Shown here in pieces: positions 27,924 through 37,722 of a stretch of DNA of 64,000 nucleotides. Position numbers and translations under genes: made by a program. Position 1 is the stretch's first letter. Each line of letters begins with the position of its first letter. Under the pieces are notes generated by a model. The model was given only the letters and a program-made list of their open reading frames with translations. It was not told the origin of the DNA and did no database searches. The stretch is from assembly GCA_900320055.1 (NCBI GenBank), contig ONQS01000002.1, forward strand, positions 83,567-147,566, read 5' to 3'. The DNA comes from an uncultured Prevotellaceae bacterium (GTDB lineage Bacteria; Bacteroidota; Bacteroidia; Bacteroidales; Muribaculaceae).

Positions 27924-28424
27924 CTAGATCTTCTTGAGGATCCAAGGCAGAGGCTCGAGTATCTTGAGGCAGACTTTCTGATCAATGCCACGGAGCAAGG
28001 CTGCGGCATCGCCACTATTGTCAAACCCCTGCAGCACCACATAGTATTGCTTGTCCTTGCCGCCAAACAGGACGTAACTGCCCTTGTAGCCGCACTCCTC
28101 GCGCAAGCGGTCGCGGTAACTCTTGGCGTTGATGCGCTGCGAGAAGGTGGCCACCACCACGTTATAGTCGCTGGCCTGATCGGTCGAGTCGATAGCAACG
28201 GTGGCATTGACATAGACCATCCTGACGCTGTCGCCATTGATGACGTGGGTGTAACGCTGACGCTCGGCTTCGATCTTGGCATAAGTCTCGGCACTGATAC
28301 CCGTCTTGCGCCGTTCGACGGCCTTCTCGTAGGCCTCGCGGTAGTTCTTCTCACTGCTATGGCATGACGTGAACATCATGCCCGCCATCAGCACTGCACC
28401 AATTATATATAATGTCTTTTTCAT
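27924..28424 (-). CDS. SPOR-domain lipoprotein
   Basis: A 166-residue lipoprotein (start 28424): MKKTLYIIGAVLMAGMMFTSC, lipobox FTSC. A helical charged stretch (AYEKAVERRKTGISAETYAKIEAERQRY) precedes a C-terminal SPOR domain (YNVVVATFSQRINAKSYRDRLREE and QYYVVLQGFDNSGDAAALL), the fold that binds denuded peptidoglycan at the division septum. It follows the phosphoesterase gene by 28 bases on the same strand. A cell-division or envelope role is inferred from SPOR. Confidence 0.82.
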   Translation of the reverse strand: MKKTLYIIGAVLMAGMMFTSCHSSEKNYREAYEKAVERRKTGISAETYAKIEAERQRYTHVINGDSVRMVYVNATVAIDSTDQASDYNVVVATFSQRINAKSYRDRLREECGYKGSYVLFGGKDKQYYVVLQGFDNSGDAAALLRGIDQKVCLKILEPLPWILKKI

Positions 28425-35904: not shown

Positions 35905-36405
35905 TTAGTCGGCGGCAGCAACCCGCTTGCACTTGCCGCTCCACGCGTCGATGTCAATGCGGAGGATTTCGACCCTATGAAACGATGCCGCCGCATACTT
36001 CATGCCGATTGCCGCGTCGTCGGGCGAGAGTTTATCGAGCAAGAGTGCCAAGGCTTGGCGTTTTTCCTCCTCCTCGAGATGTTGCACCGCGCGCCCCGTC
36101 AAGACGATGCTCTCATACTCGGTTGTAAACTTTGCCGGCAAGAGATTTACCTGGCCCACCACGCAGAACGACACCCTCGCATCCTGACCCAGACAACGAA
36201 GTTTGCGGCCCTCAGGGGCACAATGGATATAGATCGAATGGTTTCCGTCCCACACATAGTTGACCGGCACGCCATAGGGGGCCCCGTCAGCATCGCGCAT
36301 CGAAAGCACGCCCCACTCCGCCCTGCGCAAGAGATCCATAGCGCTGGACTCATCGAGCAGGCGGTCTTGCCGCCTCACTTGGTCATTGTCGTAAGTCATC
36401 GTCAT
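35905..36405 (-). CDS. Nim-like pyridoxamine-5'-phosphate-oxidase-family flavoprotein
   Basis: A 166-residue FMN-binding split-barrel protein. LLRRAEWGVLSMRDADGAPYGVPVNYVWD and IYIHCAPEGRKLRCL are the typical N-terminal half of the NimA-like group; the body has VSFCVVGQVNLLPAKFTTEYESIVLTGRA. Family members reduce nitroimidazoles or bind heme or F420/FMN in other contexts; the physiological role is unknown, and drug resistance should not be assumed. Its start overlaps the stop of the HU-LysM gene by four bases (ATGA), so the two are translationally coupled. Confidence 0.88.
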   Translation of the reverse strand: MTMTYDNDQVRRQDRLLDESSAMDLLRRAEWGVLSMRDADGAPYGVPVNYVWDGNHSIYIHCAPEGRKLRCLGQDARVSFCVVGQVNLLPAKFTTEYESIVLTGRAVQHLEEEEKRQALALLLDKLSPDDAAIGMKYAAASFHRVEILRIDIDAWSGKCKRVAAAD

Positions 36406-37430
36406 TTACCATTCAGGATTTCCCATGAGCGCCGCTGGGCACGCGCCAGGCTGGTAGAGTCGCTGGCATCGATGCCGTATTTCTCGGCAGGCGGAATCAC
36501 CACAGCAGTGCCAGGAGGCACATTGTCGGGATCGTCAAGGACGCCCTGATTCTCCTCATAAATATATACCCAGAACCACGGGCTGCCATAATACTTCTGC
36601 GAGAGGGTGCTCAGCACCTCGGTCGAGGTGACGGTATCGGTCACTACAGGTGGCGTGGCCACGGCAGCGATGGTGTCGCTATCGGCAGCGGCGGCCGACG
36701 GGTTGGCCTGTCCGCCACGGGACAGCAGCCACACGAGCACGCCTATGCCCACCACTGCGGCCAATGCTATCCACCACCAGCGCTTGCTGCCGCTCTCGGA
36801 TTTCTGCTCTGATGGAGCCGAGGCCAAGGTCAATACTGGCTCTGGGGCGGGTTCCGCTATCGGCTCAGGTTCCGATACCTCGACAGATTCCTGTTGCGGC
36901 TCGGGCTCTGGGGCGGGTTCTGGCTCTGAATCCACGACAGGTTCAGGATCGGCGGGGGCTGATTCTTTGACGGGTTCCTGCTCGGGCTCTGACTCCTCGG
37001 CAGGTTCCTGTTCGGGTTCGGGTTGTGGTTTGCGCAACTGTTCGAGGGTTTCGGGAGAGGTCGAGGGGAACCGTTTGTCGATATCGGCCAGCCGTTCGTC
37101 GGTCACAGCATCATCGAGAACGACCGAGACAAACTGCGCAAAGGGCTGATTGACAGCCTCGGCAAGACTCTTGTCTGGCGTAAAGGTCAACTTGTTGTGG
37201 CCCGCAATCTCGATGGCGTCGCCCGTTGATACGTTCACACTCTTGCGCGGCTTGACCGGCGTCACCTTGAAGGTACCGATGCCCTTGATCTTGACCGTCT
37301 CGCCGTCGATAAGTGCCTGTGTCACTGTTGCGAACAATTCACGCAGAAACAGTTCACACACACGCTTGGTGGTAGATGTGGCCTCGGCCATCAAATCCAC
37401 GAGTTCGACAAATGTGATTTTGGTATACAT
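36402..37430 (-). CDS. HU domain / transmembrane / LysM-like fusion protein
   Basis: A 342-residue protein with unusual architecture. Residues 1-90: HU/IHF-like DNA-binding domain (GETVKIKGIGTFKVTPVKPRK is the HU beta-arm entry). Residues 130-200: acidic, with many repeated EPEP and EPxx words, probably extended. Residues 218-236: one membrane helix (WWWIALAAVVGIGVLVWLL) with basic residues (KR) before it, predicting a cytoplasmic N-terminus. Residues 268-315: LysM-like (TLSQKYYGSPWFWVYIYEENQ...PDNVPPGTAVVIP). Read literally, DNA binding is inside and peptidoglycan binding outside. The gene follows a separate HU gene by 19 bases. Confidence 0.85.
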   Translation of the reverse strand: MYTKITFVELVDLMAEATSTTKRVCELFLRELFATVTQALIDGETVKIKGIGTFKVTPVKPRKSVNVSTGDAIEIAGHNKLTFTPDKSLAEAVNQPFAQFVSVVLDDAVTDERLADIDKRFPSTSPETLEQLRKPQPEPEQEPAEESEPEQEPVKESAPADPEPVVDSEPEPAPEPEPQQESVEVSEPEPIAEPAPEPVLTLASAPSEQKSESGSKRWWWIALAAVVGIGVLVWLLSRGGQANPSAAAADSDTIAAVATPPVVTDTVTSTEVLSTLSQKYYGSPWFWVYIYEENQGVLDDPDNVPPGTAVVIPPAEKYGIDASDSTSLARAQRRSWEILNGK

Positions 37431-37449
37431 GTGCTGTGTCTCCTTTCCG

Positions 37450-37722
37450 TTACTTCAGTTTGGCCTTGAGCACATTGCTCACCTTAAAGCCCACCACCAC
37501 CTTGGGCGGCACCAGCATGCGCTTGCCCGTGCTGGGCTGTACCATCACGTGTTCGTTCCTCTTTTTGGGCTCAAACGTGCCAAATCCAGGCACATACACA
37601 CAGTCCATCTCGCCACAGCGGGTGCGCAGAACACCGGCAAGGGCCTCGAGCAGTTTGCTCACGTCCTCGTCAGAGCGCCCCAGATTGGCGGCCACCGTTT
37701 CGACCAGTTTCTTGTTGTCCAT
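37450..37722 (-). CDS. HU-family DNA-binding protein
   Basis: A 90-residue nucleoid protein. VYVPGFGTFEPKKRNEHVMVQPSTGKRMLVPPKVVVGFK matches the HU arm and C-terminal helix; the usual RNP tip is replaced by QPSTGK. It is the first gene of an operon with the HU-TM-LysM fusion and the Nim-like gene. It may form heterodimers with the membrane-bound HU domain; that is inference from their adjacency. Confidence 0.92.
   Translation of the reverse strand: MDNKKLVETVAANLGRSDEDVSKLLEALAGVLRTRCGEMDCVYVPGFGTFEPKKRNEHVMVQPSTGKRMLVPPKVVVGFKVSNVLKAKLK

Follow-up and report, generated by a model that had tools for sequence, protein, structure and literature searches.

The bacterial HU-CCDC81 proteins (PF18174/PF18175) are the closest described kind to the protein considered here. 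Both have an HU part, one transmembrane (TM) helix and a further C-terminal part; HU-CCDC81 proteins contain two tandem HU-CCDC81 domains, whereas the present protein has a single classical HU domain (PF00216), carries a LysM-like fold and is encoded next to an operon partner. In Cell Cycle in 2017, Burroughs et al. reportedly described HU-CCDC81-TM-SPOR proteins, for which they predicted a function in chromosome partition. The HU/IHF (DNABII) nucleoid proteins share with our protein the fold, the Pfam model and, in most members, the arm, and IHF provides a precedent for heterodimers of the HU type. Compared to these, the membrane protein adds a TM helix, a linker and a LysM-like end, and the membrane subunit is weakly charged; in Bacteroidales, its HU domain is devoid of the proline (Pro) at the tip of the arm, and the arm has been lost repeatedly. 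The nearest LysM proteins by NCBIfam profile, PDB sequence and fold are those of the Kbp/YgaU type, which are soluble and carry a BON domain where HU stands here; Kbp is cytoplasmic.

The gene pair was found in a stretch of 64,000 nucleotides (the window). The window's genome also encodes one HU-CCDC81 protein (contig C19; L194:2805-3749) with one helix (TM 176-194), and HU-CCDC81 matches occur in 57 of 61 genomes; the two kinds thus coexist. Membership of the window protein in HU-CCDC81_bac was rejected: PF18174 was not reported and PF18175 reached 14 bits against a cut-off of 35. The HU-TM-LysM protein with its operon partner is distinct from, yet akin to, the known HU-CCDC81 kind. In the window's genome the two genes occupy separate contigs; in three genomes of the same genus (contigs G024:C17, G021:C11 and G018:C15), an HU-CCDC81 match lies approximately 4 kb from the HU-TM-LysM gene. 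Pfam SPOR had no match in the HU-CCDC81 copy of the window's genome; the sole SPOR match reported for this genome is located at approximately 27990-28172 on the minus strand of the window (G000:C38:111556-111738), in a frame of 174 aa. Two annotated records label the gene pair only as 'HU family DNA-binding protein', and our literature search brought up no recognised study of this architecture, which may still be mentioned in print. In our estimate there is about an even chance that the two genes form one device that straps DNA to the envelope.

Architecture of the gene pair

The features of the locus, beginning with the first gene of the pair, are the following:

37450..37722, minus strand: soluble HU partner, first gene of the pair, 90 aa (ORF list and Pfam)
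36402..37430, minus strand: membrane-anchored HU protein, 342 aa (ORF list)
37146..37430, minus strand: HU domain of the membrane protein, residues 1-95; arm present, valine (Val) at the usual position of the tip Pro
37110-37151: conserved NxPFxxFxxVxL extension of the membrane HU protein, residues 94-107
Residues 96-215 of the membrane HU protein: Glu/Pro-rich linker
36720..36776, minus strand: single membrane helix, residues 219-237 (hydropathy); Lys-Arg just before it
36492..36644, minus strand: LysM-like fold, residues 263-313 (NCBIfam, PDB sequence match, fold prediction)
Residues 325-340 of the membrane HU protein: C-terminal helix
35905..36405, minus strand: PPOX/Nim-like flavoprotein gene, overlapping the stop of the membrane HU gene by 4 bases; outside the system

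A preliminary description of this DNA had placed a separate HU gene 19 bases upstream of the membrane HU gene, in agreement with the ORF coordinates, and had read the membrane protein as an N-terminal HU domain, a helix and a LysM-like C-terminal domain, an order on which ORF, profile and fold prediction concur. The helix, first assigned to residues 218-236, is found at 219-237 by hydropathy (2.22), and the linker is longer than the approximately 70 residues originally given: it comprises approximately 120, among them 25 Glu and 23 Pro. The extension at residues 94-107, in which N94, F97 and F100 are invariant, is among the most conserved stretches of the membrane HU protein.

The HU end is well defined: residues 9-94 match Pfam Bac_DNA_binding (PF00216) at 9.3e-21 (74.3 bits, cut-off 22.4), and the soluble HU matches the same model at 1.3e-17. 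HU-HIG (PF18291, cut-off 26.2) scored 23.6 bits for the protein and 27.1 bits in a six-frame search of the genome, which makes membership borderline, PF00216 being far stronger. Structure prediction, which had been suggested as a check of both ends, produced an HU fold for residues 1-125 (pLDDT 88, 43-row alignment), for which Foldseek retrieved HU and IHF chains, including DNA-bound forms, at E 1e-8 to 1e-7, and a LysM-like fold at the other end, where residues 256-342 are predicted by AlphaFold as beta-alpha-alpha-beta plus the last helix (pLDDT 86, 58-row alignment).

The LysM-like character of the C-terminal domain is upheld by this prediction and by matches to Kbp, with Pfam LysM (PF01476) giving no match in the window protein up to E 1. 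NCBIfam PRK11198 (Kbp-type LysM) matches residues 258-315 at 1.9e-6, below its cut-off, and PDB 7pvc (Kbp) matches residues 245-314 at 2e-4. Kbp constructs and baseplate proteins, the latter chains presumably containing LysM domains, lead the Foldseek matches, followed lower down by chains titled LysM; the best E is 2.3e-3 and none is under 0.001. One relative from f49, a family placed in another class of the phylum, scored 17.4 bits against Pfam LysM (cut-off 20.9). Two members, L237:5983-7359 (Prevotella) and L132:1489-2877 (family f26), have no LysM match at the C-terminal end and retain HU, helix and partner; their C-terminal end looks like a decayed or divergent LysM.

Spread, orientation and genomic neighbourhood

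The surmise that similar fusions exist in other Bacteroidales proved correct: the same order of parts occurs in Muribaculaceae, Barnesiella, Dysgonomonas, Parabacteroides and Bacteroides, and also in f49. This recurrence, together with the matches within the genus given below, speaks against a chance arrangement. Genome searches, which use no LysM pattern, covered 61 genomes (the window's own and 60 relatives), 392 genomes of the phylum and 296 of the order. Among the 61, 30 of the 36 same-genus genomes have a match of at least 1e-18 quality (counted by eye from the search table). The profile search of the phylum gave matches in 275 genomes, mostly HU-length frames; 44 genomes reached 1e-17 or better. 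Of these, f49 accounts for 39, out of 40 f49 genomes listed, and the order for the other five, among them the window's own; long frames in G400 and G375 scored 5e-15. In the order, 64 genomes match at 1e-16, a few of them with HU-length or LysM-only matches.

Three sets of loci were used for the counts below: (i) 80 named loci, the best 80 of 245 relatives retrieved by means of two peptide patterns that lie within the LysM end, so that LysM is present in them by construction; (ii) 29 phylum loci, which are the best matches of the 392-genome search and not a random draw; (iii) 40 order-wide regions from 40 of the 64 matching genomes, partially overlapping with the named loci. ORF calling relied on ATG starts, except in the partner searches. 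Barnesiella sp. An22, Dysgonomonas spp. and a large number of MAGs from Muribaculaceae or Bacteroidales are among the named relatives, and the gene is also present in Parabacteroides distasonis and Bacteroides finegoldii. One record titled Lachnospiraceae (L124) shows the gene order of Bacteroidales and probably comes from a mislabelled bin. A functionless fusion, or an artefact of annotation or assembly, would hardly be kept across genera and two classes of the phylum and in megabase-size contigs, and we assign this explanation a negligible probability.

A mobile-element origin was considered as well and rejected. The phage records contain one match only, of 50% to the LysM part, in MT838247.1 ('Bacteriophage sp.', 5,498 bp, unannotated), which is possibly bacterial DNA that was wrongly labelled as phage. 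Matches occur in 164 records of the plasmid collection, and none of the 10 listed covers 80% of the query. Two Bacteroidales "plasmids", NZ_OY725834.1 and NZ_OY725888.1, have ftsY and rimO annotated (rpmG in one), and a third Bacteroidales record of 1.77 Mb, unannotated there, contains both genes according to profiles; the three records therefore look chromosomal.

Exactly one helix is predicted in all 80 named relatives, one TM in all 29 phylum loci and one helix in 36 of 38 order-wide regions (none in L230 and two in L231, by the threshold used). The preliminary description had pointed to basic residues on the N-terminal side of the helix; counts of flanking Lys and Arg agree, being higher on this side in 67 of the 80 named relatives, equal in 7 and lower in 6. 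By the positive-inside rule, we infer from this charge that the N-terminus resides in the cytoplasm and the C-terminus outside. The linkers, measured in 79 of the 80 named relatives, then have a median length of 143 residues on the cytoplasmic side and 40 on the periplasmic side. The reverse orientation, with HU outside acting on incoming or extracellular DNA and LysM inside as in Kbp, would fit the fact that this cytoplasmic protein is the first match of the LysM-like end by structure and by sequence; it is at odds with the flanking charge, with the hydropathy of the membrane HU protein, which reveals no N-terminal hydrophobic stretch, and with the partner HUs, none of those checked (29 phylum loci plus 3 further) having a helix. 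We regard it as very improbable.

The most constant neighbour is the soluble HU. It lies directly upstream in 81 of 81 loci (the 80 named ones and the window), with gaps of -26 to +81 bases, a count that is circular for those members from which the partner profile was built (good picks of the motif search, 73 found). The phylum loci agree, with the soluble HU upstream in all 29, of which 25 belong to f49 and 4 to the order. ORF calling recovered the long gene in 38 of the 40 order-wide regions; 35 of these 38 have the partner, and none was detected in the other 3. In the remaining two regions, an HU gene is found just upstream of a long frame with one recognised end (LysM in L227, HU in L232), the scan not recovering a complete long gene there. 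The earlier suggestion of soluble HU as dimer partner is likely to be right, and the N-x-P-F-x-x-F-x-x-V-x-L extension that follows the HU core may be a partner contact.

The pair is kept amid differing neighbours: ftsY-rimO and bat, or neither. In many Bacteroidales the gene order is ftsY-rimO-HU-[HU-TM-LysM]-moxR-DUF58-hypothetical-VWA-VWA-TPR-BatD-TPR, the downstream part being the Bat (Bacteroides aerotolerance) operon. Of the 80 named loci, some of them truncated at contig ends, 24 have moxR at most three genes downstream; in the order-wide set it lies downstream in 27 of 38 regions, and ftsY and/or rimO precede the pair in 15 of 38. Ten f49 stretches, each of 13 kb, were searched for ftsY, rimO and Bat beside the pair and gave no match in any of the ten; the window's genome has moxR-bat on another contig (C42), without the pair. 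Bat as an obligate partner is thereby rejected: the operon is a frequent neighbour and not required, and the unit is the pair of soluble HU and HU-TM-LysM, given that the partner is constant and that the f49 pair stands without ftsY, rimO and Bat. These neighbourhoods also bear on a role as membrane-bound regulator, in which the HU pair bends DNA at a few promoters, perhaps that of moxR-bat, and LysM signals the state of the wall. The position upstream of moxR-DUF58-bat in the 24 named and 27 order-wide loci just counted and in Parabacteroides and Bacteroides records speaks for such a role; the f49 stretches and the window's genome speak against it, as does the fact that HU binds DNA with little sequence preference, IHF being the exception. 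We consider a regulator improbable. According to a study of Leptospira (PMC3557215), aerotolerance is reduced in a B. fragilis bat mutant, and no such role of Bat was found in Leptospira.

On the other side of the window's pair, the overlap of a Nim-like gene with the stop of the membrane HU gene is real (4 bases), but the gene does not encode a Nim protein proper: its score of 103 bits is far below the cut-off of NCBIfam NimABCDEF (260), which makes it a PPOX relative. A functional link was rejected, this family being next downstream in only 7 of 80 named loci (by ORF calling). The neighbour is incidental and not conserved.

DNA-contact residues of the two subunits

In the 81-row alignment of the membrane HUs, the tip Pro position is occupied by Val in 52, Ile in 3 and Glu, Ala and Asn in 1 each, with a gap in 23; Pro does not occur. 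In 20 of the 81, no more than 16 residues of the arm region remain; the other 61, including the window, have kept the arm. The DNA-contact residues, which the preliminary description had named as a point to check, give a divided picture in the window: the arm is present, and Val replaces the tip Pro, which is found in the partner. The f49 membrane HUs have the tip Pro in 25 of 25; DNA binding therefore looks ancestral.

The mean net charge in 60 arm-keeping relatives is +1.35 for the membrane HU and +8.1 for the partner, in 20 armless relatives -2.55 and +2.4, and in the window's pair +1 and +6. Charge alone does not decide, since two ordinary HUs of the window's genome have net charges of +14 and only +5. 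Judged by charge, tip residue and arm, the membrane HU appears to bind DNA weakly on its own, and any DNA held by the pair would probably be held mostly by the partner. The partner has the tip Pro in 59 of 61 cases where the membrane arm is kept and in 2 of 20 where it is not; for Lys/Arg at arm position 58, the corresponding figures are 60 of 61 and 4 of 20. On a tree computed without the arm columns, the armless state requires four changes, three of them unavoidable given well-supported branches. If kinship is ignored, the states of the two arms are strongly linked (Fisher p 7e-14 for tip Pro). Corrected for kinship, three well-supported independent pairs remain, which on average change in the same direction in 2.3 of 3 for tip Pro and 1.9 of 3 for Arg/Lys and never in the opposite one; the median p is 0.5 and not significant, and the joint change of the arms is hence suggestive only.

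DNA binding is thus not universal in the family, because the arm was cut in approximately four events and most partners of the armless members are devoid of the key arm residues. The ancestral pair would have bound DNA through both subunits; the Bacteroidales would then have moved the grip to the soluble subunit, and some lineages would have abandoned HU-type gripping. The link to the nucleoid via HU that had been proposed initially accordingly stands in part: the arm kept in most members and the basic partner favour it, and the near-neutral membrane HU, the missing tip Pro and the cut arms do not.

These same losses suggest that the HU domain may have turned into a protein-protein module, in which case the heterodimer would serve as a cytoplasmic adaptor for a membrane protein that senses the wall, with DNA no longer the main ligand. 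The armless fifth or so of the alignment (20 of 81) with its low charges in both subunits, the separate origins of this state and the partners concerned, 18 of which have no tip Pro and 16 no Arg/Lys, would be accounted for, and the eukaryotic HU-CCDC81 clade has taken a similar turn to protein-protein binding. Arms and a strongly basic partner have been kept in the other 61, among them the window, and the arm is Pro-tipped in f49, which argues against an adaptor; we take it to be fairly unlikely.

A putative strap between nucleoid and wall

The preferred reading, a strap between DNA and envelope, could operate in the following manner: The soluble HU and the membrane HU domain would heterodimerise beneath the inner membrane, on its cytoplasmic side. 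Most of the DNA grip, basic and tipped with Pro, would come from the soluble subunit; the membrane subunit would add dimer contacts, a weaker second arm, the long, acidic and flexible linker and the single predicted helix. In the periplasm, the LysM domain, to judge from its fold, may hold peptidoglycan. Together they would form a loose strap holding nucleoid DNA close to the wall, in parallel with the HU-CCDC81-TM protein that this genome also encodes. In lineages with both arms decayed, the strap may hold a ligand other than DNA, or DNA via a different surface. The predicted folds, the single TM with its basic N side, the constant, basic and Pro-tipped partner, the Pro in f49 and the varied contexts argue for the strap; the near-neutral membrane HU without tip Pro, the arm losses, the weak LysM matches, the members with no LysM match and the loci in which no partner was detected argue against it, and on the whole we see the two sides as evenly balanced.

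A more far-reaching reading, which we put forward as tentative and on balance doubtful, is that the HU pair has strapped DNA to peptidoglycan since ancient times in this phylum and was converted approximately four times, by joint decay of both arms, into a strap without an HU-type grip; the family would then be a natural experiment in which anchoring can be told apart from DNA binding. To our knowledge, nucleoid placement and segregation in Bacteroidota have been little studied. A physical link between an HU dimer and peptidoglycan would couple the position of the chromosome directly to wall growth. The pair is present in gut genera such as Bacteroides, Parabacteroides and Barnesiella and is thus amenable to deletion and imaging, with the armless lineages as a built-in control.
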